A stretch of 49,206 nt of DNA from a virus. Position numbers and translations under genes: made by a program. The DNA lies in the IMG/VR virus record IMGVR_UViG_3300032116_000318, positions 1 to 49,206 of that record; one strand, 5' to 3'. Shown piece by piece: positions 13,356-35,370 of this stretch (the stretch's first letter is position 1; the number at the start of each line of letters is the position of its first letter). The notes under the pieces are model-generated. The model was given only the letters and a program-made list of their open reading frames with translations, did no database searches and was not told where the DNA came from.

Positions 13356-13742
13356 ATGGATGACGAACTGAATAGCAGGAAGCGCCGGGCGCTTGAGTTT
13401 TCAAAGCGGCTGTTGGCCCTTCGGGTAGACAAAGGCTATAATCAATCGGAGCTTGCGATTCGGGCAAGCGCCTACCTTCCAGATCGCCGGTCATTTTCAA
13501 GGGCGAGCATATCGCGTTACGAGATGGGCGAAAACATTCCAGGCCCAAACACACTAGCGGCGCTCGCTCAGGCGCTCGGGGTCGAACCAGCAGAATTGCT
13601 GCCCCGCACAATCGGCGCCGGCCAACGCGCGCCAGTCTTCCTCGAAGCGGATTCGGAAGGCCACGCCAGACTGTCGCTGGACATACGGCTCCCTTACGAT
13701 CTTGCGCTCAAGATCATGGCAATGCTGCCTTCGCGTTCATGA
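13356..13742 (+). CDS. Xre-family repressor-like HTH regulator
   Basis: The product is 128 aa. Residues 12-80 form an HTH_3/Xre domain: a KRLLALRVDKGYNQSELA first helix pair, then the recognition-helix region (SRASISRYEMGENIPGPNTLAALAQALGV), slightly long in the loop because of an inserted SAYLPDRRSF stretch. The C-terminal 45 residues may serve in dimerisation. No LexA-like Ser/Lys protease domain is visible, so induction would not be by RecA-driven self-cleavage. ATG at 13356 follows a GGGAGCAAGGA region. Its stop overlaps the next gene as ATGA, and integrase follows, so it probably controls lysogeny. Confidence 0.8.
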   Translation: MDDELNSRKRRALEFSKRLLALRVDKGYNQSELAIRASAYLPDRRSFSRASISRYEMGENIPGPNTLAALAQALGVEPAELLPRTIGAGQRAPVFLEADSEGHARLSLDIRLPYDLALKIMAMLPSRS

Positions 13743-14098
13743 CCTCGGGAGAGTTTGCGAACCTCTGCGGCGTGTCCTTGCGGACAGTACAGCGCTACCT
13801 GGCGGACGGGCGGTTGAAGCCCGCTTACCGCACCGCAGGAGGCCACGCCCGTTTTACGCCAGATCAAAAAGAGAGATTGCCATGCCCCGACCCGTCCGCA
13901 CCGTTCCCTGGATCGAGACCCGCAACGGCGTCCACTATGTCAACTGGTACGCGCCGCCTGCGGATTCAGCGGCCAAAGGACGGACGGAGCGCCTTAGCCT
14001 TCGCACGCGAGACGCGGCTGAAGCGCAAGCTCGCTTCGCTGCCTTCCTCGCTGAAGGCCCCGCTATTTTCGCGCCGAAAAGTGTGCAAGCTGTCGTAA
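13739..14098 (+). CDS. Excisionase-like MerR/AlpA-type HTH protein
   Basis: The first 46 residues are a clear winged-HTH of the excisionase/MerR type: SGEFANLCGVSLRTVQRYLADGRL, then a GGHARF wing. Start ATG overlaps the repressor stop (ATGA). The frame then stays open for another 70 codons inside the integrase gene, where the sequence becomes Arg/Ser/Pro-rich and looks non-functional. Either the protein has an overlapping low-value tail or the true stop is lost. Position before integrase supports a role in excision or integrase control. Confidence 0.6.
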   Translation: MTSGEFANLCGVSLRTVQRYLADGRLKPAYRTAGGHARFTPDQKERLPCPDPSAPFPGSRPATASTMSTGTRRLRIQRPKDGRSALAFARETRLKRKLASLPSSLKAPLFSRRKVCKLS

Positions 14099-14946
14099 CT
14101 GTGCCAGACGCGCTTGATCGCTATTTCACCGAGCACGTCGTCCCGAATGTTTCGAGCCGGATTCGACAGGAAATCGCCATCCGGCACCTGAAAGCCTACT
14201 TCGGCGATACGCCGCTCAACAAGGTGGACATCCCCGCCTGCCGCGGCTATGCAGCCGCGCGCCGCGCCGGGGCTGTCGGGGGGCATGTCTCGGGCAAGCG
14301 CGCCGAAGGGAGCGATTCCACCATTCGACGGGAACTGACCGTTCTGCGGGCCGCGGCGGGCCATGCGCTCAGGTGGAAGCGCCTGTCGGCGGCGGACGCG
14401 CCCACCTTCGAGTTGCCCACCGAGAACCAGCTTGACGAAGACGCCATGTGGCTGACGAAGGGCGAGCTCCTGCGGCTGCTCCGCCGCGCCGACGGCGATC
14501 TGAAGACCTTCATCGCGATATGTTACTGGACCGGTTCGCGCCGGGGGGCGATCGAGACCTTGACGCTGGCGCAGGTCGAGGCCGACCGAGGCCGCGTCAA
14601 GCTCGCCAAGCCGGGGGAGAAGCGCACCAACAAGCGCCGGCCGCCAGTCCCGATCTTCCCGCGCATGAAACCCTACCTGGTCCGTCAGATGAAGGCCGCT
14701 GAAGCCGCCGGCCGCAGCACGCTCTACGCCTCGAACATCGACTTCTACAAGGCCTTCCGGACGCTCTGCGAGGCCGAAGGCCTCGGGGAGAAAGGCTTTC
14801 CCCACATCCTGCGCCATAGCCGCGCCACGCACATGCTGATGGCCGGGGAGAGCATCTACAAGGTGGCGAAGCTCCTGGGCGACACGATCCGGACTGTCGA
14901 GACCCGGTACGGTCACGCCAGCGTCGAATTTCTCGCGCAGAACTGA
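13882..14946 (+). CDS. int: Tyrosine-family site-specific integrase
   Basis: The product is 354 aa and would catalyse integration and excision at the tRNA-linked attachment site just downstream. An N-terminal SAM-like core-binding part occupies about residues 70-180. The catalytic domain shows TGSRRG (Arg220), HILRH (His308, Arg311) and ETRYGH (nucleophile Tyr343). The usual His/Trp of box II after LLG is Asp334. I chose ATG at 13882; upstream frame extensions read through the excisionase-like gene. The gene lies between regulators and attP, the standard arrangement for a temperate phage. Confidence 0.92.
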   Translation: MPRPVRTVPWIETRNGVHYVNWYAPPADSAAKGRTERLSLRTRDAAEAQARFAAFLAEGPAIFAPKSVQAVVTVPDALDRYFTEHVVPNVSSRIRQEIAIRHLKAYFGDTPLNKVDIPACRGYAAARRAGAVGGHVSGKRAEGSDSTIRRELTVLRAAAGHALRWKRLSAADAPTFELPTENQLDEDAMWLTKGELLRLLRRADGDLKTFIAICYWTGSRRGAIETLTLAQVEADRGRVKLAKPGEKRTNKRRPPVPIFPRMKPYLVRQMKAAEAAGRSTLYASNIDFYKAFRTLCEAEGLGEKGFPHILRHSRATHMLMAGESIYKVAKLLGDTIRTVETRYGHASVEFLAQN

Positions 14947-15180: not shown

Positions 15181-17313
15181 TTATTTCCGGTAGCGCTTGC
15201 CTTCCCAGCCGTCAGCGGCGATCGGCAGACCGTCCATCCAGGGCCTCGGCTGCTTCATGAGCCCGACAAATTCGTCGAACGAGCCGAAACCGACAGGCGC
15301 TTCGGCCACTACCTCGTCGTGGATCGTCAGAACGGGCGTGTAGCCCGCCGCGTCGACCGCCAACATGCTTTCAGCCATGACATCGCGCGCTGCCGCCTGG
15401 ACGGGGTTCTGCACGGCCAGCCCGCCGTAGAAATGCTGCTTCGACCATTTCTTCGTGAAGCTGTCGACCGCGAAAAACGACATGCCTTTTACCTTGGCGG
15501 GCTTGCCTTCGTCGTCGGTCCAGGGCGCTTCGCGCCAGTCGATCGAGGGAAAGGCGTAGGCGATCAACCTCCCGCTCGGCAACCGGCAGAACAGCCACGA
15601 ACCGTGCTTGCGGTAGCGGAGCCGGCCGGCGTGGGTGACGAGCCCCGGATTCTCGACCGCCTCGACCGCCGCCTGATTGCAGGCTTTCCAGTAAGCGACT
15701 GTCGCGGGGTGGCTGTCGCGCCAGCCGAGCTTGACGACCTCCGCCGTTAGCCAGCGCCGCTGCATGACCCCGCTCGCCTTGCCCCGCGCTTCCCACGCTT
15801 CCTCGGCCTTCCGGATGTTGGCCGCCGTCGCGCTCGCCATCACGGCGTCGTGCGTGTCGGCGATGTCGAGGCGATAGTTCTTCGCCATTTTCAGGAGCGC
15901 CATCGCGCCGCCGCCGAATCCGAAGCTGAGGTCGCTGACCTTGCCGACTTGCCTTCGAGGATCTTCCTTGGAGATGCTGTCCGGACTCACACGGTAAATG
16001 CCCGCCGCCGAGACGATGTACACGTCCGGACCGGCCTTGTTGTCGGCGTCGACGAAGGCCTTCAGGACATGCTGCTCGCCGGCCAGCCACGCCGTCATGC
16101 GGGCTTCGATCTGGCTGTAGTCGGCGGCGAGAAGGCGGTGGCCTGGTCCGGCCGTAATCATGGAACGGATGCAGTCCGACACCACCGACAGCGCGGACAC
16201 CGGCGGTATGTTGGCCTCCGGCGGGAACGTCTCGCCGTACAGCATCTCCAGCAGTTCAGCATCGCCGAGCATGAGGTTGTCGAGAACGGCGGGCGTCACC
16301 TTCAGCGCGGGCCGCGGTAGGTTCTGAAGCTGCGCGCCGCGCGCCGCCCACCGACCCGTCGTCGCGCCGTGATACTGAAGGTTCCCGCGCATCCGGCCGT
16401 CCGCCTGGCGCGTTGCAAGCAGCTTGGCGATCTTGGCGGTGCTTGTCTTGGCGCCTTCTTGCCGGATGTTCAGCGCGCGCCGCACGTCGGGCGGCAGATC
16501 ATCGCGCACCAGCAGGTCGGCCAGTTCGTCCTTCTTGACCGATTCCGCATCGACGCCGCGCTCGCGACAGAACCCGACCAGTTCGGCGACGTTCGAGACG
16601 CCCCGGACATGAAGATCCGTGACGCGGCGCATCTCCTCGTCCAGGCGGGCCTGCGCGGCCTCCACGACCCGCTGGCCGGCCAGGCAGAGCGCTTCGTCGA
16701 CATAGACGCCCCGGTCGTTCGCGCGTTGGTCCAGGAACCACACCCGCTGCTCGGAATCGGACAGGGGCGGAATTCGGGCGTCGATCGCCGCTTCGGCGCG
16801 AACGTCCGCCTTGCAGTACTCCCCGAGGCGGGCCAGCTTCTCCGGTTCATCCCACCAGTATACGCCTGCGGGGTCTTCTCCCTTGCGCGCCTTCCTAGTT
16901 TTGCTCATCCGGAGCATAAGGGCCTTGCCCTCCATGTCCTTTTCCTGCGCCAGCCCGATCGCGGGGGCGCATTGCTCCAGCTTGCCCGGAAGGCCGACAG
17001 CGTACGCGGCCGCCATGACGCAGCGGTATTGCTCCAGGTCGGGCTCGGGCCAGCCGTAGCGAGGCGTCAGCAGCCTGCGCCAGGCAAGCCGCTCGAACGC
17101 GACGTTCCAGCCGTAGACAAGACCGCCGAGCAAAACGTGCTCAGCAACACGCAGCGGGACAGGCTGGCCGGGGAACCACAGTTGCGGCTCCTCGTCGTCG
17201 AACGCCCACGCAAGCAGCCATATATCTGCGCTCGGATGATCGAAGTAGACGTAAGCGTTCGCTTTCGGCAGGTCCACGACGCATCGGGTTTCAACGTCGA
17301 TATGCAGCTTCAC
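15181..17313 (-). CDS. Family A DNA polymerase with 3'-5' exonuclease
   Basis: The product is 710 aa. The N-terminal DEDD exonuclease shows HIDVET (Asp6, Glu8) and YGWNVAFE. The palm has motif A (LAADYSQIEARM), motif B (RRQVGKVSDLSFGFGG) and motif C (LTIHDEVVAE). There is no 5' nuclease domain, as in T7-like and other phage PolA enzymes. Start is GTG at 17313, overlapping the previous stop as GTGA. It is the last gene of the leftward operon. It would be the phage replicative polymerase. Confidence 0.92.
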   Translation of the reverse strand: MKLHIDVETRCVVDLPKANAYVYFDHPSADIWLLAWAFDDEEPQLWFPGQPVPLRVAEHVLLGGLVYGWNVAFERLAWRRLLTPRYGWPEPDLEQYRCVMAAAYAVGLPGKLEQCAPAIGLAQEKDMEGKALMLRMSKTRKARKGEDPAGVYWWDEPEKLARLGEYCKADVRAEAAIDARIPPLSDSEQRVWFLDQRANDRGVYVDEALCLAGQRVVEAAQARLDEEMRRVTDLHVRGVSNVAELVGFCRERGVDAESVKKDELADLLVRDDLPPDVRRALNIRQEGAKTSTAKIAKLLATRQADGRMRGNLQYHGATTGRWAARGAQLQNLPRPALKVTPAVLDNLMLGDAELLEMLYGETFPPEANIPPVSALSVVSDCIRSMITAGPGHRLLAADYSQIEARMTAWLAGEQHVLKAFVDADNKAGPDVYIVSAAGIYRVSPDSISKEDPRRQVGKVSDLSFGFGGGAMALLKMAKNYRLDIADTHDAVMASATAANIRKAEEAWEARGKASGVMQRRWLTAEVVKLGWRDSHPATVAYWKACNQAAVEAVENPGLVTHAGRLRYRKHGSWLFCRLPSGRLIAYAFPSIDWREAPWTDDEGKPAKVKGMSFFAVDSFTKKWSKQHFYGGLAVQNPVQAAARDVMAESMLAVDAAGYTPVLTIHDEVVAEAPVGFGSFDEFVGLMKQPRPWMDGLPIAADGWEGKRYRK

Positions 17314-17588
17314 CGCCGCCTCTTGCGCTTTAAGGCTTTCCAGTGCGGCGGTTCGGAGAAATCATCGCCAACGCCAAGGTAGTTCTTGTTCGGCTTCGTT
17401 GGGGTCACCGTAACGACGGTCTCGCCCTCGATCAGAAGCCAGTGCCCGTCCGGTAGCGGAACGCTGCGCGCCTTTATGGCGATGTACGGGTCCGCGATCC
17501 TCTGAAGCTGGCGACGGTGGGATTCGACATCGATTCCGCAGCACCGCTCCATGAAACGCAAAAGCGCATGGTCGCTAATCCGTCGCAC
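17310..17588 (-). CDS. Unknown small basic protein upstream of polymerase
   Basis: The product is 92 aa. I chose GTG at 17588 because GGAGGT lies 6 nt before it; the longer frame to 17636 lies inside the previous gene. The sequence starts RRISDHALLRFMERCCGID, a pattern seen in short phage proteins, and ends in a very basic KALKRKRRR tail that could bind nucleic acid. Stop overlaps the polymerase start. Function unknown. Confidence 0.7.
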   Translation of the reverse strand: MRRISDHALLRFMERCCGIDVESHRRQLQRIADPYIAIKARSVPLPDGHWLLIEGETVVTVTPTKPNKNYLGVGDDFSEPPHWKALKRKRRR

Positions 17589-17811
17589 GGGAGACCTCCA
17601 CGGCAACGTATTCAACGGTGAACAGATCGTGCTCAAGCCAGGCCAAAGTCCAGACCTCCGCGTCGCTTCGCGTGGGGAACTTCTCGGCTTCGCGGGGGTC
17701 GCGACGCCAGACCAGCGGCCGCCAGCCTGTGCTTCTGTCAGTGGCCGGCCGGGGCGTCGGATTGACCGCCACGTACTGACCCTCCACTTCGACGGCGTAA
17801 AAACCCTTCAT
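17575..17811 (-). CDS. Unknown 78-aa protein
   Basis: The start at 17811 is fixed by an ATGA overlap with the GcrA-like gene before it. The product begins MKGFYAVEVEGQYVAV and ends with a Trp- and acidic-residue-containing region (DAEVWTLAWLEHDLFTVEY). No signal peptide or membrane segment. It overlaps the next gene by 14 nt. Not recognised. Confidence 0.65.
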   Translation of the reverse strand: MKGFYAVEVEGQYVAVNPTPRPATDRSTGWRPLVWRRDPREAEKFPTRSDAEVWTLAWLEHDLFTVEYVAVEVSRATD

Positions 17812-18119
17812 TTGCGGCGGTTCCGGGTTCGGCCCCGGCCTTGTTGGCGGCTCAATCGGAAAACCATGTCGAGCGGCGCGCGGGGGCCGTCGTGGGTGCG
17901 GTGGCCGCGATACACGGTTCGCGCCAACATGTCCGCGTGGCATTCCAGCAGTGGGGGCTTCTGAACCGACTCAATGCTGGCGCTCCAGTGCGCTTCGCAA
18001 TAACTGCGGCCTTCTTTCTGCGGGTCGCCGCAGAACAGGTATGGCGCGCGGTCGCCGATCGGCCAGCGGCACTCCCCGCGTTTCAGGTCGAAAAGGGTCT
18101 TCAATTGGTTGTCGCACAT
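17808..18119 (-). CDS. GcrA-like protein with sigma-interacting domain only
   Basis: The product is 103 aa. Residues 14-40 carry the signature of the GcrA C-terminal domain: GECRWPIGD, YLFCG, then SYCEAHW (Cys/Cys/Cys/His pattern). GcrA is an alphaproteobacterial cell-cycle regulator that binds sigma70 region 2 through this domain and methylated DNA through an N-terminal HTH. That HTH is missing here: only about 10 residues precede the domain. The tail is Arg-rich. ATG at 18119 follows GAGGAC 3 nt upstream, and the stop overlaps the next start. I infer a sigma70-targeting protein, either an antagonist or an appropriator. Confidence 0.8.
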   Translation of the reverse strand: MCDNQLKTLFDLKRGECRWPIGDRAPYLFCGDPQKEGRSYCEAHWSASIESVQKPPLLECHADMLARTVYRGHRTHDGPRAPLDMVFRLSRQQGRGRTRNRRK

Positions 18120-18152
18120 TTTGTCCTCTCGGTTCAACTTTTTCACGAGCGA

Positions 18153-18170
18153 GGCCGCGCGAGAGCGGCC
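18153..18170. promoter_or_regulatory. Hairpin between GapR-like and GcrA-like genes
   Basis: GGCCGC and GCGGCC flank a 6-nt loop in the 63-bp gap, the widest gap in this part of the operon. No T run follows in the direction of transcription, so it is not a standard terminator. It may tune expression of the polymerase-proximal genes. Confidence 0.3.
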
Positions 18171-18182
18171 CCGCCCGCTGGT

Positions 18183-18428
18183 TTACGACATGGCGCGGCG
18201 GTAGAGATCGAGGATTTCTTCCTCTGCCGCCAGTTCATCCCGATCGCGCTTGCGTTCGGCGATCAGCTTGCGCATGATCTTCGGAGCGAACCCGTTGGCC
18301 TTTGCCTCGGCGTAGACATCGCGGATGTCGTCGGCCGTGGCCTTCTTCTCCTCCTCAAGCCGTTCGACGCGCTCGATCAACGCGCGCAGTTGCGGATTGA
18401 AGTTGGACCTGGGGGCTTCGTCCGTCAT
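18183..18428 (-). CDS. GapR-like (DUF2312) nucleoid-associated protein
   Basis: The product is 81 aa and matches the whole GapR/DUF2312 fold. It has RVERLEEEK, then the highly typical [10 protein letters not shown] turn, a basic helix ([17 protein letters not shown]) and an [12 protein letters not shown] end. Host GapR is a tetrameric clamp on overtwisted DNA ahead of polymerases and helps gyrase and topoisomerase IV. The phage version probably does the same on replicating phage DNA or competes with the host protein. Start overlaps the previous stop (ATGA). Basic helix residues are retained. Confidence 0.9.
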
Positions 18429-18688
18429 AGCGCCCCCACGATGTTCTTGAAGTGCCTCTCAAGGCCGGTCAACGCCCTGTCCGCCTGTTTGAGGCGGTTG
18501 ATCGCGCGGTCTATGTCGCCGTTAACCGTGTCCGGCGCAGAGGGCTGCGCGTCCCACGCAACCGGCCCAAGCAGACGCTCGTGGGTGTGCATCGCCCACT
18601 CCTCAAGCGCCTGGACGCGATCGTTGAAAGAGTTGATCTCCGCGAACAGCCCTGATGACTTACTGAGCTCCACCGCCGCCCCCTTCAC
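18425..18688 (-). CDS. Unknown helical protein (87 aa)
   Basis: It starts with GTG overlapping the stop of the ssDNA-binding protein gene (GTGA) and ends overlapping the GapR-like start. The sequence is mostly helical ([49 protein letters not shown]) and may form a coiled coil. Co-translation with the ssDNA-binding and GapR-like genes suggests a DNA-metabolism role. Not recognised. Confidence 0.65.
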
Positions 18689-19266
18689 GAGAAGATCTCC
18701 TCGGTCACGTCGACCGGCTCGAACTCCTGCGCGGCCGTGATCATGCCGCCGCCGATACGCTCGTCGTCCTCAAGAAGCTGCACGTTCTGGAGGTAGACGC
18801 CGACGCCTTTCTGCTCGCCGTCGTAGGGCTTCACGCGCACGGTCACGAACGCCCACCGGCCGCCGTAAACCTCGTGCGCCTTGTCATCGCCGCACACATC
18901 GCCGTTGGCGAAGACAACCCCCGGCTTGTTGCGCGAATTGAGCCGCAGGAACACCGAGTAATCGGCGGCAAGCTCCGACATCCGGGGCTGGTCTTCGGTC
19001 TTGAGGAACGGCTTCTTGACCTTGACCTTTTTCGCGTAGTCGGCGCCCCATTCCTCCACCGCGGCGGCTTCAACCGCGTCGGTCAACACCTTCATGTTGA
19101 CCCCTCGGGGGATCAGCACCGTGGTCTGGAAGCGCGCCTTGTCCGGATTGTTCGGTTCCTTGCGGTTCGGCTGCGGCTTGAAGAAGTGCGGGTAGTACAG
19201 CCGCACGCGCGGCAGCCTGATGTTCCCGCTCGCCATGAGCTTGCACGTCATTTTATCAGACGACAT
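18685..19266 (-). CDS. ssDNA-binding protein (DUF2815 type)
   Basis: The product is 193 aa with the layout of phage DUF2815 ssDNA-binding proteins. It has an RLPRVRLYYPHFFKPQPN start, an FQTTVLIPRG strand, an AWGADYAKK-like helical middle and an OB-fold-like region (PGVVFANGDV; YGGRWAFVTVRVKPY; GVYLQNVQLLEDDERIGGG). It ends with an acidic tail ([10 protein letters not shown]), as in SSB proteins that recruit partners. I chose ATG at 19266, overlapping the nuclease gene end; ATG at 19251 is possible. It works with the neighbouring DUF2800 nuclease and polymerase. Confidence 0.8.
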   Translation of the reverse strand: MSSDKMTCKLMASGNIRLPRVRLYYPHFFKPQPNRKEPNNPDKARFQTTVLIPRGVNMKVLTDAVEAAAVEEWGADYAKKVKVKKPFLKTEDQPRMSELAADYSVFLRLNSRNKPGVVFANGDVCGDDKAHEVYGGRWAFVTVRVKPYDGEQKGVGVYLQNVQLLEDDERIGGGMITAAQEFEPVDVTEEIFS

Positions 19267-20515
19267 CTGGGTCACTTTCGTTCGAGGTTGCAAATTCCGA
19301 CGCATCGGCGATAACCGACGGACGGGGGTCATCATCGGGAGCCAGGACGGTCCCCGAGGATTTCTTGACGGTCAGGTCGGCGAGCGCCTTGGCGCGCTCG
19401 GCCTTGTTCCTTCCCGGCATAAGTTTTTCGATCTTGGCGGGAGAGAGCAGTTCGGGCTCGGTCCAGATGTCCGTCAGCCCGCGCGCCTGAAGCGCCTGGG
19501 CGGCCTCCTGCTCGTTCCGCCATTCCCTTGTCGCCCGCCGCGCCACCAGCTTGTAGCCGGTCGGAAACCGGCCCTGCGCGGCCTCGGCGTGGGCGAACTC
19601 GTCGATGCGCGCAAGCCAAGACGTGATTTCCGTCCGCAGGCGCAGCACCCGCGCGATTTCGTCGGGGCTCATCGCCGTGACGATCGGCAGGGTTGGCTTC
19701 TCATCGTAGACGCCAAACTCGGCCTTCACGATATCGAGAACCCGGTCCCGCTTGGCCGGGCAGATCGCCTCGGCCTTGCAGAACTTGCACCAGTCGCCAG
19801 CCCGTAGCGGCGCGTCCGGCGCTTCCGAGGCCTCCGCCGCCCGCGCAAGATCCACCTCGAAGTCGAGCAACGTCACCGCGTCGGCGACCCACCTGCGAAC
19901 GGGTCCGTCCTTGTGGCCGCAACGCGGCTGAACCACGATAAGCTCGATGTCGCCGACGCCCCGATTGTGGTACCGATTGACCACGCCGAGCGCGTAGCAG
20001 AGCAGTTGCGTGTTCTCGGACGGCTCAACCGCAACGCCCCGGCCGTATTTCAGGTCGGCGACCACAACCTTCTGCGTCGCCGGATCGTAGGCCATGAAGT
20101 CGGCGGTCCCGCCCTCCATACCGGAGACGCCGGACAGATCGACCCACGTCTCGTAGGAATGCTCGACTTGCGGAGACGCCGCCGCGAGAACGCCCGCGCA
20201 GGTGTCAAGGTAAAGCTGGACGCCATCCACCATCTCGGAATCGACAAGGAACGAGCGGCCGCCAACGGGGGCGATCGTCACGCGCTGCGCCTCCGGCGCG
20301 TCCAGGTTGACATAGAAATCCGCAAGATCTTCCGCGCGGATTCCTTCACGCGCGCAGCGCTCCGCCAGTTCGTGCGCCGCAGTGCCCTCGTCCGCGAAGG
20401 ACGAGCGCCTGTCGGGGATGTGCTCCTGCATCCGGAGGCTTCCAGGGCACTCCATGACGCGCTTCGAGCCGGACGGGCTGAAGCGCGCATGGCGCCGGGC
20501 GACGTGGCCGCTCAT
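19256..20515 (-). CDS. DUF2800 Cas4/RecB-like nuclease
   Basis: The product is 419 aa. The active-site region shows GGTADFMAYD then VVVADLKYGRG, the PD-(D/E)XK pattern (Asp, Asp-Leu-Lys). A downstream Cys cluster (WCKFCKAEAICPAK plus an earlier RCGHK and CPGS near the N-terminus) fits an iron-sulphur site as in Cas4/AddB nucleases. Start ATG 20515 overlaps the stop of a tiny membrane gene (ATGA); the open frame upstream to 20740 covers that gene. DUF2800 with DUF2815 and PolA is a common phage replication-recombination set. Confidence 0.85.
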   Translation of the reverse strand: MSGHVARRHARFSPSGSKRVMECPGSLRMQEHIPDRRSSFADEGTAAHELAERCAREGIRAEDLADFYVNLDAPEAQRVTIAPVGGRSFLVDSEMVDGVQLYLDTCAGVLAAASPQVEHSYETWVDLSGVSGMEGGTADFMAYDPATQKVVVADLKYGRGVAVEPSENTQLLCYALGVVNRYHNRGVGDIELIVVQPRCGHKDGPVRRWVADAVTLLDFEVDLARAAEASEAPDAPLRAGDWCKFCKAEAICPAKRDRVLDIVKAEFGVYDEKPTLPIVTAMSPDEIARVLRLRTEITSWLARIDEFAHAEAAQGRFPTGYKLVARRATREWRNEQEAAQALQARGLTDIWTEPELLSPAKIEKLMPGRNKAERAKALADLTVKKSSGTVLAPDDDPRPSVIADASEFATSNESDPDVV

Positions 20516-20661
20516 GAAAGCACCACGGCGGAGACAAGGATCGCCGCAACGCTGGCGATCACGACAAGCAGGGAGCCAGGGAACAGAAGCGCTGCCCCGA
20601 CTGAAGCCGCAGCGCAGACGCCGCTCAAGACGGCGGCGCGAACATGCCTGTCGAGGCTCAT
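20512..20661 (-). CDS. 49-aa membrane peptide
   Basis: This short gene has ATGA overlaps at both ends, with the DUF2800 start and the methyltransferase-fusion stop. The product begins MSLDRHVRAA and then is nearly all hydrophobic (VLSGVCAAASVGAALL; SLLVVIASVAAILVSAVVLS), giving two likely membrane helices. No signal peptidase site. Perfect coupling on both sides supports reality. Function unknown. Confidence 0.7.
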   Translation of the reverse strand: MSLDRHVRAAVLSGVCAAASVGAALLFPGSLLVVIASVAAILVSAVVLS

Positions 20662-21125
20662 GCCAGCCCCCTATGCTTCGCAATCGCGGCGATGAAGGCC
20701 TTGCGGTCGCCCGGCTTGATTTCGCTGATTTTCGCAGCATTGAACTCCGCCAGAACCTCGCGGCACTTCGCGCGGCCGTCCGCCTGCCTGCCGAGGTCGA
20801 GCAAGGCGTTGCGGGCGTCGTCCTCGGTGAACTCGGTTTCCGAGTTCAGGGCGGCGATCGTCTCGACCGCGGCGGCCTCGACCGTCGCAGGCTTGCTGGC
20901 CTCGGGCTGCGGGGCGGGTTTCTCGGCGGGGTCAAGCGCCGGAACCGGCTCGACCAGCGCGGGCGACTCGGGGGCGCGCCTGGCGCGCTTGCGAGGCGTC
21001 GCCTGCGGCGCAGGCGACGAAAGCTGCGCGTCATCGATCTGGTTCCCGATCGCGGCGGCCAGCGCCGCCAGTTCGTCCAGGGCTTCCTGCGCGGCAGCCC
21101 CCGTGATCGTGATATTGACAGGCAT
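20658..21125 (-). CDS. Possible separate 155-aa protein from internal start
   Basis: Translation may begin anew at ATG 21125, preceded by AAAGGG. The product begins MPVNITITGAAAQEALDELAALAAAIG, resembling the start of independent phage proteins near recombination genes. It continues with a Pro/Ala/Glu linker and a C-terminal helical domain (REVLAEFNAAKISEIKPGDRKAFIAAI). In most phages I recall this type as a stand-alone gene, so the in-frame union with the methyltransferase may be a recent fusion or a masked stop. Function unknown. Confidence 0.5.
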   Translation of the reverse strand: MPVNITITGAAAQEALDELAALAAAIGNQIDDAQLSSPAPQATPRKRARRAPESPALVEPVPALDPAEKPAPQPEASKPATVEAAAVETIAALNSETEFTEDDARNALLDLGRQADGRAKCREVLAEFNAAKISEIKPGDRKAFIAAIAKHRGLA

Positions 21126-21839
21126 GTGCGTTTTCCCTTTCAAAAGTTGCACATTTTTCGACACTTCAGGCGACAAAATTTTGGTTGTCGGCGAATTTCG
21201 CACCGGCGCAGAACCGCCGGTCTCTTCACCGAGCCGGAGCCAGCCCCATTGCGTCTTCCCGCTGCGCGGCGCGTCCGCCGGCTCCCACACCAACCAGCAC
21301 CAGTCAGAAGACCCGTTACCGGCCTTATTCCCTGCGGCCAGATAATCCCCCGGCGGACAGGACACGCGAGGCGTCACGACCCAAATTCGATCCGGTGGGA
21401 AATCGTGATAGAGGCCGTTTGCGCGTTCGCTGCTCGCCAAAAACCGAACATCCACAAACGCAGCGGTTTTCAGCCCGGTGGCGAGCGCCTGTCGAATGGC
21501 AGTTTCCGTCCCCTTCGCCTTGAAATATGGGGGGTTCGTGATAATCGCGCCTGGGGCGAGATGCGGCGCAACGCCATCCTGCAAGAAATTACGCTCCCCC
21601 TTGAACCAAGGGGTCTGCGCCGGGACGCGCCGGACCAAATCACACCCGAACGCCTCGATCCCGGCCGCCCGACAGGCGGAAACAATGTTCCCCCCTCCGC
21701 AGCAAGGGTCCAGCACCGGCGCGGCGAAACGCTCAACACGCAACAAAGCCGTCGTCGCAATCACGGGCTCCACGTACCAATCCTCGGAGTGGCGCTCCCA
21801 GATGTGCGCCTTCTTCACACGCTTCGTAGATTCGACCAC
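20658..21839 (-). CDS. N6-adenine methyltransferase fused in frame to a phage accessory domain
   Basis: The product is 393 aa from GTG 21839, with GGAG 6 nt upstream inside the C5-methyltransferase end. The first part is a class I amino-methyltransferase: DPCCGGGN (SAM motif I), then FGCDL and ITNPPYFKAKG (catalytic NPPY). After about residue 235 the frame runs without a stop into a Pro/Ala linker and a helical end (EDDARNALLDLGRQADG). An ATG at 21125 with AAAGGG upstream could start the second part separately. Probably an anti-restriction modification enzyme; target unknown. Confidence 0.75.
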   Translation of the reverse strand: MVESTKRVKKAHIWERHSEDWYVEPVIATTALLRVERFAAPVLDPCCGGGNIVSACRAAGIEAFGCDLVRRVPAQTPWFKGERNFLQDGVAPHLAPGAIITNPPYFKAKGTETAIRQALATGLKTAAFVDVRFLASSERANGLYHDFPPDRIWVVTPRVSCPPGDYLAAGNKAGNGSSDWCWLVWEPADAPRSGKTQWGWLRLGEETGGSAPVRNSPTTKILSPEVSKNVQLLKGKTHMPVNITITGAAAQEALDELAALAAAIGNQIDDAQLSSPAPQATPRKRARRAPESPALVEPVPALDPAEKPAPQPEASKPATVEAAAVETIAALNSETEFTEDDARNALLDLGRQADGRAKCREVLAEFNAAKISEIKPGDRKAFIAAIAKHRGLA

Positions 21840-21840
21840 C

Positions 21841-22986
21841 TCAAGCTCCAACGGTTTCGAGAAGCGCGGCGAGGACTTCCGCCGCGACTTGCGGAACGAT
21901 TGCATTGCCTCCAACGCGCCAGAGATCCACTCGTCCGGGAAGCCCATCAACCAGAAGGCGAAGACCGGGTTTGGTGCGCCGCGCTTTTCCGTCGTGGCAG
22001 ATGATCCATTCGTGATCGGACCAGTAAGAGCCGGAATAGTTGTGCCCTGTGCTGCGTGTTCCATTGCTATGTTCAACGGAGTCCCCATGCGCCGGCCATG
22101 CTTCGCCACAACTCGCGCCTGTCTCGCCTCGTGCGTCTCTGGTGTATCCCCGCTCAGCGAAGCCGATACGGTCGGCCAAGTCGCCAGTTCCGTTGCGGCC
22201 ATCTGGCGGGGCAACTGGTCGAGTCGTGAGCGGTCGCCTGCTTCTGTCGCCATCCCCACGCTGTCCTTCCAGTCTCGGGCCGAAGGCGTCACCCAGGGCG
22301 ACGCCTTGTGCATCTGCGCCGGCAGCGGCATTCCGCCCGCTCCGAAGCTCATGTTCGGCCCGCCCTTCTCCCCGTCGCTCGCACGCGGCGTGCTCCAGGT
22401 CATCAGTCCGTTCAGCAGCGGCTCGTCCGCCCGCGCCCCGCTGCGCGCCTTCCTGCCGCCCTGCACGTCCGCCACGGTCGGCGTCGGCCACGGCGACCCA
22501 ATACAGCCGGTTCCGTTGGTGTGGCGCGTCGACGGCGAGAGCCGGGATATCGACCGTCCGGCTGGCGTAGCCTTCGCCCTCCAGATCAGCGCGGACTCCG
22601 TCGAACCAATCGTAGCCAGCCGCTCCCGCAGCCTGTTCTCCCACGAGGACAGGGGGCCTTCGGGCACGGGCGAGCCGATATACGTCCGGCCACAGATGCC
22701 TTGGATCATCGGTTCCGAGCCCTTTGCCCGCCGGGCTGAACGGCTGGCAGGGGCAAGAGGCGGTCCAGAGGGGCCTGTCGTCGGGCCAGCCGGCCATTCG
22801 GGCGGCGACGGACCAGAGGCCGCCGCCAGCGAAGAGGTGGACTTGGGTAAATCCTGTGAGGTCATTTGGCGTCAGGTCCATGATTGAACGGGAGTCGACA
22901 ACGCCCGGCGCGATGACGCCCCGGGCAATCTGCTCGCGCAGGATGGCGCAGGCGGCTTCGTCGATTTCGTTGTAATAGGCGGTCAT
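21841..22986 (-). CDS. C5-cytosine DNA methyltransferase
   Basis: The product is 381 aa. Motifs in order: VHLFAGGG (I), SCPCQPFS (IV, catalytic Cys), GEQAAG (VI, with Gln in place of Asn as in many phage enzymes), QRNRLYWV (VIII), then a long Gly/Ala/Arg-rich variable region and GNAIVPQVAAEVL (X). Start ATG 22986 is set by an ATGA overlap with the tiny membrane gene. No cognate endonuclease is visible, so it is an orphan enzyme, probably anti-restriction. The next frame over the same DNA also looks protein-like (see findings). Confidence 0.88.
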   Translation of the reverse strand: MTAYYNEIDEAACAILREQIARGVIAPGVVDSRSIMDLTPNDLTGFTQVHLFAGGGLWSVAARMAGWPDDRPLWTASCPCQPFSPAGKGLGTDDPRHLWPDVYRLARARRPPVLVGEQAAGAAGYDWFDGVRADLEGEGYASRTVDIPALAVDAPHQRNRLYWVAVADADRGGRAGRQEGAQRGAGGRAAAERTDDLEHAACERRGEGRAEHELRSGRNAAAGADAQGVALGDAFGPRLEGQRGDGDRSRRPLTTRPVAPPDGRNGTGDLADRIGFAERGYTRDARGETGASCGEAWPAHGDSVEHSNGTRSTGHNYSGSYWSDHEWIICHDGKARRTKPGLRLLVDGLPGRVDLWRVGGNAIVPQVAAEVLAALLETVGA

Positions 22987-23129: not shown

Positions 23130-23311
23130 GTCCGTTTCCTCTTCGCAGGTTTCCGCGCGCCCCGTTCCAGCCGCTTGACCGGAACGCTTTCCTCGGTCGC
23201 GTAGCGCTTGCCGCACTCGTCGCATTGCCGGCGGCGAAGAACCGCGAGCCCTGCGGGCTGCTTGCGCAGCACCCACGACTTTCGCGAGCCGCACTTGGGG
23301 CAAGGCGTCAT
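23126..23311 (-). CDS. Zinc-ribbon protein (61 aa)
   Basis: CPKCGS and CDECGKRY, with RRRQ just before the second pair and ATEE after it, form a four-Cys zinc ribbon like the N-terminal part of NrdR. The ATP-cone domain of NrdR is absent. The rest is a basic tail (RLERGARKPAKRKRT) fit for nucleic-acid binding. Coupled by ATGA to the helicase upstream and the membrane peptide downstream. Possible transcription or replication accessory. Confidence 0.75.
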   Translation of the reverse strand: MTPCPKCGSRKSWVLRKQPAGLAVLRRRQCDECGKRYATEESVPVKRLERGARKPAKRKRT

Positions 23312-24645
23312 GCGAACAACTCCCTTGTCGTCGCCAGCTTGTCAGCGCACGCCGCCTGAATGCGTTCGTCGTACGACCCCGGCACAGTCGCGAACCACGC
23401 CTGGCAAGGCCTCGTCTTGAACAGGTTCACCACGCGCATCGCTGCTTGCTCGTTGACGCCCGGCGTCCATGAACTTTCGGCAAAGACAAGCTCGTCGGCG
23501 GCGCTCAAGTCGATCGCTTCCCCAGCCGTATCAAGGTTGCCGACGAAGACCCGGCACTCCGGATCGCGCGCAAATCTCTCAACCGCTTCCCGCCGCTCCC
23601 GCGCGCTCGAACCGCCATAAAGCGAAACAGCCCCGAACGCCCGGAGCGCGTCCCGGTAGCTTTCAACAACTTCAACATGGTGGGCGAACAAAACGAGCTT
23701 CGACCCGCCGTCCTCCAGGCGCTCGAATGCCCAATCCGCCACCGCCTTGACCTTGGCGAGGCCAGTCAGACGCCGCAGTTCGCCCTTCGACGCCGCGAGG
23801 CTCGACAGCGCAGCAACGCCGGAACGATCCAGCGCGGCGTTGATTTCCCGCACATCGTCGGCGACCGACGCCGGAAGCCGAAGGCCTCCGGTCAGCGGCA
23901 GGATATCGACAGACAGCCGCGGGAGATCCGGCGCGATATCTTCCAGCGACCGGCGAAGCACGTAGGGCTCCATGGCCGCTTTAAGCTCAGCCAGGTTCTT
24001 GCCGCCGGTAATCCGGACATGGCCAAGATAGTTTTCCTCGGTGCGACAGTAGCGACTGACGAACGTCCAGTAGGACAGGGGATGGCCGGGACGCGACCCC
24101 TTGACCTTCCCGCCGGGAATAACCCCCGGCATGATCGCCCGCAGCATCGGCCACAACTCCGCAGGGTGGCTTGGCGCAGGCGTGCCGGACAGGCACCAGA
24201 CCACCGGCGCGCATTCCGCGAGGCCTCCGGCGCGGTCCCACTTCTCCCCGTAGGCGGCTTTCGTCCTGCGCGCGTCCCGCGTCTTCAGCCGGTGGCTCTC
24301 GTCAAACACGACCAGATCCCACGGCCGCTGGAGCTTTTCGCGCAGCGAGCCCGAGGCGAGATCGTAGCTGGTGATGTTGACGCCTTCGCCGGGGTCGGAC
24401 GCGCGGCTGACAAGCACTCGAACCCCGCGCGGTTGCGTCTGAAACCCGATCCACGCCTTCGCGTGCTCGACCGTCGCCGCGCCGCGCGTCAACCAGAGGA
24501 TATTTTTCGCGCCGACTCGATCTGCTCCGCCGATCGCCGAAGGCGTCTTGCCGACGCGCATCTTGTCGGCCAGAAGGGCGGACGGGCGCTCAGCCAGGAA
24601 GTCAGCAGCGGTGATCTGGTGCGGGCGAAGCGAGCGAAGCGGCAT
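23308..24645 (-). CDS. SNF2/DEAD-like superfamily II helicase
   Basis: The product is 445 aa. It has a Q-motif-like LRPHQ start, motif I DKMRVGKT (residues 27-34), motif II DESH (115-118), motif III SGTPAP (153-158) and a C-terminal half with IVLFAHH-like and VFVGNLDTAGEAIDLSAADELVFAE (motifs V-VI region), the SNF2 style. ATG 24645 follows GGGA 5 nt upstream; ATG 24651 is possible. It belongs to the same replication-recombination set as DUF2800/DUF2815. Likely remodels replication forks or recombination intermediates. Confidence 0.85.
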   Translation of the reverse strand: MPLRSLRPHQITAADFLAERPSALLADKMRVGKTPSAIGGADRVGAKNILWLTRGAATVEHAKAWIGFQTQPRGVRVLVSRASDPGEGVNITSYDLASGSLREKLQRPWDLVVFDESHRLKTRDARRTKAAYGEKWDRAGGLAECAPVVWCLSGTPAPSHPAELWPMLRAIMPGVIPGGKVKGSRPGHPLSYWTFVSRYCRTEENYLGHVRITGGKNLAELKAAMEPYVLRRSLEDIAPDLPRLSVDILPLTGGLRLPASVADDVREINAALDRSGVAALSSLAASKGELRRLTGLAKVKAVADWAFERLEDGGSKLVLFAHHVEVVESYRDALRAFGAVSLYGGSSARERREAVERFARDPECRVFVGNLDTAGEAIDLSAADELVFAESSWTPGVNEQAAMRVVNLFKTRPCQAWFATVPGSYDERIQAACADKLATTRELFA

Positions 24646-24724
24646 GTGCATCCCGTGAATCTGTTGCTAATACCCTACACACAATTCAACAGTCCGCGCA
24701 AGCGGAAAGTTGCCTGGATCGTCG

Positions 24725-33498: not shown

Positions 33499-33646
33499 GG
33501 TGGGCCTCCTTTACGGGGTTTGCATTGAACATGTCCGGAGTGTCGGGGCAACGATAGAGCTCCTGAAACGTTTCGCCGCGTTCCGCGACACCCTCCCCAT
33601 TGCTGAAGGCGTCGTTGTCGGATTTGACTTGCAGGTAAAACAACAT
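33485..33646 (-). CDS. Unknown small protein (53 aa)
   Basis: ATG 33646 is coupled to the previous stop as TGATG and preceded by GGGGAGG. The product begins MLFYLQVKSDNDAFSNGEG and is acidic with no membrane helix. The end overlaps the next gene start by 14 nt. Too short for the usual gene callers but well supported by coupling. Confidence 0.65.
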   Translation of the reverse strand: MLFYLQVKSDNDAFSNGEGVAERGETFQELYRCPDTPDMFNANPVKEAHRARI

Positions 33647-35370
33647 CACGCCTCCCCTTTCTCGATCACGACAAGCACGGTTGAAACGCCGGTTCCGGAC
33701 GCCCTGAAGGAGCCTTCGGGCAGTTCGTACTTTTCGCCGCCGGACTCTTCAAACCACATGCGGAACGAGCGCGACCGTTCATCGCTGCGAAAGAATGGGC
33801 CGGGCGACATGATGGCGACCAGCCGCCCGCCGGGCTTGAGATGTGCAAACGCAATCCGAACGTGCGCGGCGTCCTGGCCGTTTTCGAACGGCGGATTCAT
33901 CAATACACGGTCAAACGTCGCTTCCGGCTCGCGTTCCGTGAAGTCGCATTGGTCGACCGTGTAGCCCTTCGCCTTCAGGATATCGGCAAGCGCGCCGTGC
34001 CGCTCAAAGGCGGCCAAACGCGCGCCCGGATGCGCCGCCGCGATTTCGTCAAGAATCGCGCCAGCGCCGGCCGACGGCTCAAGAATGAGCATCCCTGGCT
34101 TGACGTCCGCATGCTCCAGCATCGTTGCAACCACGGCGCGCGGCGTCGGGAAAAAACCCGGAATGTTGGCGAATTGCAGCGCGCCGATTTTGGCCCGCAA
34201 TTCGTCCGCCTTTCTGTCGGCGTCGCTTCGCGGCGCGATCAGCGTCCAAAAGGCGCGCGCCGCCGGCGTGTCAAGCGCGGGCTTGTCGGTATCGTGTCCG
34301 GCGTCATAGTAGCCTGCCCTGCTGTGATCGATGAACGATCTGGCAAGGTCATAGGCGACGCGCTTTGAAGTGACGCCGCGCAAATCGCCCGGAAGCGTGC
34401 CGGCGTCAATCGCGTCCGCCATGGCGCGCAATCCGGCCTGAGTCCGCTTGAGCCGTCGCCACTCGATCCGCATTGCGTCCGCCTGTCGCTTGCGCTTTGG
34501 CGTATTCGCGAGCCTGTCGCGTCCGGCGTTGTCGATCTCGGATTGCATGTCGTTCGCCATGTCGCGCAGATTGCCGGCAAGGCGCGCGTTGGCGTCCGGG
34601 GCAGGCGCGGCGGCTGGCGCGTCCGGCGCGTCCGTGTCGGGCTTGTCGCCGCCGTCCGGGCCGTTGCCGCCCGTCATGCCTGCGAAGGCGCGCGCCGCCG
34701 CTTCGCTCTTGAACGCGAACCCGCCTGGCGTTCCTGCCCATGCCTTGCTATACCAGCCGCCGCGCGCCTTCGCTTCGCTCAAGAGCCGGTCATATTCAGC
34801 GCGGTCAACGCGATTGAGTAGGACGACAAGCCAGAAATCAAATCCGTGTTTCGTATGGTGGTGTTTCTCGATCCGCGCCGCGCCGGACGTGAGAGATTGC
34901 GCGGCGTCCGTGGCGTCCGTGGCGCGCGCCTTCGAAGCCTTCGCCACGTCCGGCGCAAGCAACCATTCGCCCTCCGGTATGGAATGCGCCGGCCTGTCGC
35001 CATAGAGCCGGACCTTGCGCACCGTCCAGCCGGTCGAATACCGGCCGGACGCCTTGAGATAGTATCCAGCGCCCATGCTCCATTTTTCGCGATGTTCAGC
35101 ACTGTTTGGAGCGTCTGCGAGGTGTGCCGCGTCCGGAAAATGCCGGACGGCTTGCCGCAATTCCGGAAAAAGGTCGCGACCATGTGGCGAGAACGCGAGA
35201 ATTACGGTTCTGCCTGTTTTCGTGTTGAAATAGTCAGACATGGGGTCGGAGTCGTCGATCTCCATTTGCGCGACAATGACCGCTTTCGCCCATGTCGGAA
35301 TACGGCTCTCAGCGTCCGCCTTGAACGCTTTGGAGCGTTCCGCCGCGTGTTCAATCGTTGACACGTTCAT
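33646..35370 (-). CDS. Two-part protein with C-terminal N6-adenine methyltransferase
   Basis: The product is 574 aa. The N-terminal 240 residues are unrecognised, with an RGGWYSKAWAGTPGGFAFKSEAAARAFAG segment in short form typical of large phage accessory proteins. A Pro/Ala linker and a helical middle follow. The C-terminal 190 residues are a methyltransferase: FFPTPRAVV, LEPSAGAGAILD (motif I), AFERH, then RVLMNPPFENG (catalytic NPPF) and HLKPGGRLV. ATG follows GGAG. Likely anti-restriction or host-interference; third methyltransferase of this phage. Confidence 0.75.
   Translation of the reverse strand: MNVSTIEHAAERSKAFKADAESRIPTWAKAVIVAQMEIDDSDPMSDYFNTKTGRTVILAFSPHGRDLFPELRQAVRHFPDAAHLADAPNSAEHREKWSMGAGYYLKASGRYSTGWTVRKVRLYGDRPAHSIPEGEWLLAPDVAKASKARATDATDAAQSLTSGAARIEKHHHTKHGFDFWLVVLLNRVDRAEYDRLLSEAKARGGWYSKAWAGTPGGFAFKSEAAARAFAGMTGGNGPDGGDKPDTDAPDAPAAAPAPDANARLAGNLRDMANDMQSEIDNAGRDRLANTPKRKRQADAMRIEWRRLKRTQAGLRAMADAIDAGTLPGDLRGVTSKRVAYDLARSFIDHSRAGYYDAGHDTDKPALDTPAARAFWTLIAPRSDADRKADELRAKIGALQFANIPGFFPTPRAVVATMLEHADVKPGMLILEPSAGAGAILDEIAAAHPGARLAAFERHGALADILKAKGYTVDQCDFTEREPEATFDRVLMNPPFENGQDAAHVRIAFAHLKPGGRLVAIMSPGPFFRSDERSRSFRMWFEESGGEKYELPEGSFRASGTGVSTVLVVIEKGEA

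Follow-up and report, generated by a model that had tools for sequence, protein, structure and literature searches.

Profile searches and structure prediction confirmed the assignment of a 103-amino-acid phage protein to the sigma-interacting domain (SID) of GcrA, without the HTH of that regulator. The window, i.e. the whole stretch of DNA that was analyzed, comprises all 49,206 bases of an IMG/VR virus record, and the product of its open reading frame (ORF) 17808-18119 (minus strand) is MCDNQLKTLFDLKRGECRWPIGDRAPYLFCGDPQKEGRSYCEAHWSASIESVQKPPLLECHADMLARTVYRGHRTHDGPRAPLDMVFRLSRQQGRGRTRNRRK. An initial annotation made from the DNA letters had described this product as consisting only of the SID on the basis of the motifs GECRWPIGD, FCG, and YCEAH. 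All three motifs were found in the 103-aa protein, encoded on the minus strand, and the SID without HTH was borne out by profile and fold. The word "only" went too far, as residues ~53-103, half of the protein, form a basic tail predicted with low confidence. The gene and its parts are as follows:

17808-18119, minus strand: stand-alone GcrA SID protein, 103 aa (PF07750, fold match, coding composition, ribosome-binding site)
17970-18104, minus strand: SID core, residues 6-50 (alignments; pLDDT block means of 87-97 across residues 1-50)
17811-17963, minus strand: basic C-terminal tail, residues 53-103 (low-confidence prediction, composition)
17575-17811, minus strand: downstream 78-aa gene, function unassigned, starting with an ATG that overlaps the stop of the SID gene (ATGA)

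Domain assignment and coding status

Comparison with Pfam gave a single family, GcrA (PF07750), with an E-value of 2e-9 and 38.5 bits versus a curated cut-off of 26.9. The match covered only positions 97-143 of the 155-position profile, starting at 89 if the open frame was extended upstream. A SID profile built from 75 viral sequences, the window's own SID included, matched the protein with an E-value of ~1e-14. The NCBIfam equivalog model for GcrA (NF050816, cut-off 280 bits) gave 22.4 bits over residues 10-55 only, and the window protein lacked the second domain of two-domain GcrA, an N-terminal HTH reading methylated DNA. A phmmer search of the PDB retrieved only GcrA chains (5yix_B, E 0.007; 7ye1_G, E 0.025).

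The fold was predicted by AlphaFold2 from a 97-row alignment of the window SID and 96 viral SIDs; a single-sequence model (pLDDT 45) was discarded. Block means of the pLDDT were 87-97 over residues 1-50 and 55-67 beyond, and the tail is probably disordered according to this model. The predicted fold matched the GcrA C-terminal domain, an unrelated fold being the outcome that the initial annotation had named as refuting its reading: the top three Foldseek matches in the PDB were 5yix_B, 7ye2_G, and 7ye1_G (probability 0.99-1.00), with the fourth being noise. Their weak E-values (0.04-0.12) are probably due to the shortness of the domain of about 45 residues. The alignment to 5yix_B had a TM-score of 0.72 by target length and an rmsd of 1.4 Å over 43 columns at 37% identity. 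The fold match supports the assignment rather than proving it independently, because the input alignment consisted of SIDs and the program may have been trained on these structures. GcrA from Caulobacter crescentus (PF07750; PDB 5YIX for SID-sigma2, 7YE1/7YE2) has the sequence and predicted fold of its C-terminal SID in common with the window protein, but comprises 173 residues versus 103 here; the window protein has neither N-terminal HTH nor linker and carries a basic C-terminal tail instead.

The SID core keeps eight positions that are invariant in viral and host SIDs (C17, W19, P20, G22, C30, Y40, C41, and H44), an invariance that partly reflects the use of a pattern in collecting the viral set; C17, W19, C30, Y40, C41, and H44 were also invariant in a set found by tblastn. 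The invariant C-C-C-H set resembles a metal site. It may be taken to indicate a small Cys/His module, possibly metal-binding, in which the SID fold is kept for a ligand other than sigma70. In line with such a module, a 74-aa protein of Rhizobium phage RHph_N65 has a C-C-C-C variant of the pattern and scores under the cut-off of the family, and a SID is fused to an unrelated protein in viral contig L079. As the window SID clearly exceeds the cut-off of the family and the only convincing structural matches were GcrA SIDs, we consider this alternative very unlikely.

The SID gene starts with an ATG preceded by a GAGAGG ribosome-binding site; an alternative GTG start at 18146, 27 nt further upstream, would give 112 aa. 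The G+C content per codon position (0.64/0.50/0.80) matched that of other phage genes and did so in both the SID half and the tail half, whereas an overlapping ORF within 17811-17943 showed no such match. Thus, the tail belongs to the coding sequence, with 17811 as the start of the next gene. Together with the GAGAGG site and the stop/ATG overlap, the normal composition indicates an intact, packed small gene. Residues ~53-103, about half of the protein, contain 13 K/R versus 4 D/E (pI ~11.8).

That the gene leaves no room for a GcrA HTH, as claimed initially, held true: the GapR gene upstream extends to 18183, which leaves 63 nt before the SID ATG, and no HTH profile matched. The window contained no significant match to a profile of 100 GcrA N-termini (best E 9.9), and a PF07750 search of the whole record revealed no second GcrA piece.

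Operon and phage context

Along the direction of transcription, the gene order is SNF2-type helicase, methyltransferase, DUF2800 exonuclease, single-stranded-DNA-binding protein, 87-aa protein, GapR-like protein, SID protein, 78-aa protein, 108-aa protein (phrog_8252), and PolA. From spacing and strand, we infer that the run from helicase to PolA forms one transcript. The features around the SID gene are:

23308-24651: SNF2-type helicase, operon member
20658-22865, minus strand: methyltransferase-like protein, 735 aa, NPPY motif (PHROGs matches)
18685-19335, minus strand: single-stranded-DNA-binding protein of the replication operon (PF10991, E 4e-24)
18183-18428, minus strand: GapR-like DNA-binding protein, directly upstream of the SID gene (PF10073, E 2.7e-29; NCBIfam NF010247, E 2e-27)
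18145-18178, minus strand: G+C-rich 14-bp hairpin between the GapR and SID genes (RNA fold of 18110-18190, 81 nt, z-score -3.4)
15181-17313, minus strand: family A DNA polymerase (PolA), closing the GapR-PolA slot in this phage group (PF00476, E 1.2e-19)
14449-14922, plus strand: tyrosine integrase domain
13739-14098, plus strand: MerR/excisionase-like protein

The 735-aa methyltransferase had no Pfam match at E ≤ 1; it comprises a stretch similar to phrog_1008 (phage DNA methyltransferase PHROGs), followed by the NPPY part, which corresponds to phrog_799. No T-run follows the hairpin between the GapR and SID genes on the minus strand, and scans for promoters and terminators yielded nothing useful. 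The integrase domain and the MerR/excisionase-like protein suggest that the phage is probably temperate. Its PolA is 40% identical to that of the rhizobial phage RHph_N65, and this relation, together with GapR and the SID, makes an alphaproteobacterial host most likely.

Some neighboring features were recorded in passing. At the position of the 87-aa ORF, which had no Pfam match above the cut-off, two relatives encode Acb2/Tad1 hairpin-domain proteins (PF24729) just before GapR (L211, 5338-5628, minus strand, E 4e-17; L135, 4260-4502, plus strand, E 2e-17). GapR adjoins a full-length GcrA in Agrobacterium phage Atu_ph08 (L002) and in contig L111. Elsewhere in the window (33646-35370, minus strand), a 574-aa protein has an NPPF methyltransferase end and a PADLOC mad2 match (E 4e-21).

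The initial annotation had also stated that the phage appears to lack an RNA polymerase of its own. None was found among the nine large proteins scanned against PHROGs, which is weak evidence for the statement, and a PF00940 search of the phage gave no match, with the control also matching nowhere. Avoidance of GANTC was considered as a sign of CcrM involvement and dropped. These sites are depleted relative to dinucleotide shuffles (110 vs 211), but in the 23 coding regions tested their number was close to the codon-preserving expectation (68 vs 76.8, sd 6.1).

SID-only genes in other genomes and their origin

A DNA-pattern scan revealed at least 120 viral stretches with candidate SIDs. Among those listed, 97 of 107 uncut SID ORFs had an HTH-like N-terminus, and ten, including that of the window, did not; this share is rough, since these ORFs also served to build the HTH profile and only listed matches were counted. 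Most of the 107 ORFs came from the DNA-pattern scan and were mostly viral, with a few from phage records. Six of those listed were clearly without HTH (window, L037, L079, L091, L106, and L109). The frameshifted full-length GcrA of L072 was rejected, and L059 (first cysteine missing) as well as L047 and the second L055 ORF (no HTH profile match, but long) were left out of the clear set. A pattern for SIDs close to the start codon added L149 and the 61-aa L146/L147. Convincing tblastn matches inspected in phage records were all full-length GcrAs, and peptide patterns retrieved no close relatives of the exact 103-aa protein from viral or genome contigs. Two of the unusual proteins were inspected individually. 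In L079 (11080-12405, plus strand), a 442-aa protein begins with the SID; it matches DUF6551 weakly and appears ParB-like by eye. The SID-like C-C-C-C protein of RHph_N65 (gp40, L129, 29098-29322, minus strand) scored below the GcrA cut-off (E 0.0019, 19 bits), and its gene is the first of a leftward run that diverges from a rightward one.

SID-only proteins, for which the initial annotation had suggested a search in alphaproteobacterial phages, were found at the same genomic position in the best PolA relatives among those found, G007 and G131 (60 and 62% identical). Both encode a SID-only protein of 94 aa between GapR and PolA (L091 in G007, L149 in G131), the slot that it occupies in the window. 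The SIDs are ~51% identical to that of the window over 41 residues, their tails differ, and a methyltransferase gene directly precedes them, its stop overlapping the SID start (PF01555 in G007, phrog_799 in G131). The phrog_799 assignment is common to the G131 methyltransferase and the operon methyltransferase of the window. Comparison of the L091/L149 pair (dN 0.13, dS 0.41) gave a dN/dS of about 0.33, which shows purifying selection. The reuse of one slot within a phage group argues for a function of the SID-only gene.

The conserved neighborhood could point to recruitment by separate subunits, in which the SID would link the host holoenzyme to a DNA-bound operon partner, the GapR-like protein or the methyltransferase, and two polypeptides would replace HTH plus SID. 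GapR lies just upstream or at most two genes upstream of the SID in all three related phages (window, G007, and G131), the methyltransferase stop overlaps the SID start in G007 and G131, and for the GapR homologue DsbA of phage T4, a role in recruiting host polymerase has been proposed (PMC7824862). However, the PolA relatives L130 and L135 have GapR but lack a SID in the slot, which in L130 holds a Dam-type methyltransferase; GapR is missing from the other SID-only phage records examined, and sharing an operon is not the same as contact. We regard this arrangement as quite unlikely, if slightly less so than the Cys/His module.

In a tree of 52 SID columns, the window SID fell among full-length GcrAs like those of RHph_Y1_10, Mwe-JY13, and pSymB, with support of 97/93, apart from L091/L149. 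Holding window, L091, and L149 as one group was marginally rejected (AU p 0.044, 52 columns), a weak test because the group was named only after the tree had been seen. The ten SID-only rows required at least eight state changes, with many forks poorly supported, which suggests several independent HTH losses, albeit weakly resolved; L091/L149 may come from a loss separate from that of the window.

The SID-only form arises repeatedly and sometimes by plain decay. The annotated 75-aa "GcrA" of Sinorhizobium meliloti ml21 pSymB (L194, 1429-1656, plus strand) is what a frameshift has left of the gene that encodes a 147-aa GcrA in strain ml47. SID-only ORFs were also found in alphaproteobacterial genomes, with a full-length GcrA alongside in 3/3 MAGs checked (L165, L183, and L184). 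The ml21 case and the grouping of the window SID with pSymB-type GcrAs would fit a decaying remnant here too, i.e. a full-length phage GcrA minus its HTH and without present function. We rate this as very unlikely in view of the good ribosome-binding site, the normal codon-position composition including the tail, the tight operon packing, the retention of all conserved SID positions with no HTH remnant, and the SID-only genes that two relatives carry in this slot and that as a pair are under purifying selection.

A candidate decoy for sigma region 2

In Caulobacter, the GcrA SID binds sigma region 2, and a separate DNA-binding domain provides methylation-specific promoter binding (PMC7403470); factors of this type are known to use region 2 as a docking hub (PMC6917491). 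Given this division of labor, a SID without HTH would be expected to compete with GcrA or, alternatively, to work independently of the DNA sequence, and we moderately favor competition. The SID protein would dock on region 2 of the host primary sigma factor, like the Caulobacter SID, and occupy the GcrA site on the RNA polymerase holoenzyme. Having no HTH, it could not bring the polymerase to methylated GcrA promoters, and the host GcrA/CcrM cell-cycle program would be uncoupled during infection while the phage replicates. Judged from homology, binding to sigma is probable, and, provided that it occurs, competition with GcrA is slightly favored as the main outcome. The complete chain from the freed SID docking on region 2 to the uncoupled host program is tentative, at somewhat below an even chance.

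This proposed sigma decoy is supported by the SID identity from profile and structure, the conserved positions kept, and the recurrence of SID-only genes between GapR and PolA in the nearest relatives found, G007 and G131, together with the dN/dS of that pair. Against it, the SID is ~37% identical to the Caulobacter SID, and a competitor would have to be abundant. The basic tail could contact DNA and make the protein an activator instead. Furthermore, full-length GcrA is far commoner in phages (97/107 uncut ORFs among those listed), an argument that phages usually benefit from GcrA activity rather than from its loss. Basic tail, GapR neighbor, operon methyltransferase, and integrase, none of which the initial annotation mentions, all widen the range of mechanisms.

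The tail would fit a Crl-like cofactor, which would bind sigma region 2 independently of DNA sequence and stimulate open-complex formation generally or at phage promoters, as Crl does for sigma-S, with the basic tail making non-specific DNA contacts in place of the HTH. Such a tail is found here (pI ~11.8) and, Lys-rich, in the SID-only phage protein L106 (whole protein pI 10.1), the gene belongs to a replication operon, with no RNA polymerase detected in this phage, and Crl itself works via region 2 without DNA contact (PMC6917491). However, some SID-only proteins are not basic (L147, pI 6.6; L183, pI 6.8), and known GcrA activation needs its DNA-binding domain (PMC7403470, PMC6917491); the region-2 activators GcrA, RbpA, and GrgA also need promoter DNA contacts, unlike Crl (PMC6917491). 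We consider a Crl-like role unlikely, though less so than the other alternatives to the decoy. The region-2 cofactors Crl and RbpA would resemble the SID protein by analogy only, if the SID alone modulates region 2 (PMC7403470), and family searches revealed no sequence relation to it.

Full-length phage-borne GcrA has been known since phiCbK in 2012 (PMC3556154; see also PMC6630229, PMC9382816) and is thought to manipulate the host transcription or replication state (PMC3556154, PMC6630229). These phage genes (phiCbK gp222, Atu_ph08 gp5, RHph_Y1_10, Mwe-JY13) encode a GcrA SID, as in the window; those aligned here keep the N-terminal HTH region, whereas the window protein has lost it. The phage anti-sigma factors AsiA, gp39, and P7 target sigma region 4, whereas SID homology points to region 2 (PMC7403470), and none of them was named for the SID protein by Pfam, PHROGs, or NCBIfam. 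In the open-access literature searched, we found no description of a SID-only GcrA or of region-2 sigma decoys (phage anti-GcrA) as a class.

More broadly, alphaproteobacterial phages may repeatedly have trimmed GcrA to its SID, which, with the GapR and methyltransferase operon, would act as a region-2 sigma decoy switching off the methylation-dependent cell-cycle program (anti-GcrA); this general proposal is doubtful at present. If true, GcrA could be inhibited with a dominant-negative tool of natural origin, and a phage factor would be at hand that acts on sigma region 2, whereas the reviewed phage sigma repressors act on region 4 (PMC7403470). The assumption for phage GcrA homologues is that they boost replication genes of the host; a recurrent form that retains only the grip on sigma predicts, instead, the displacement of GcrA from RNA polymerase.
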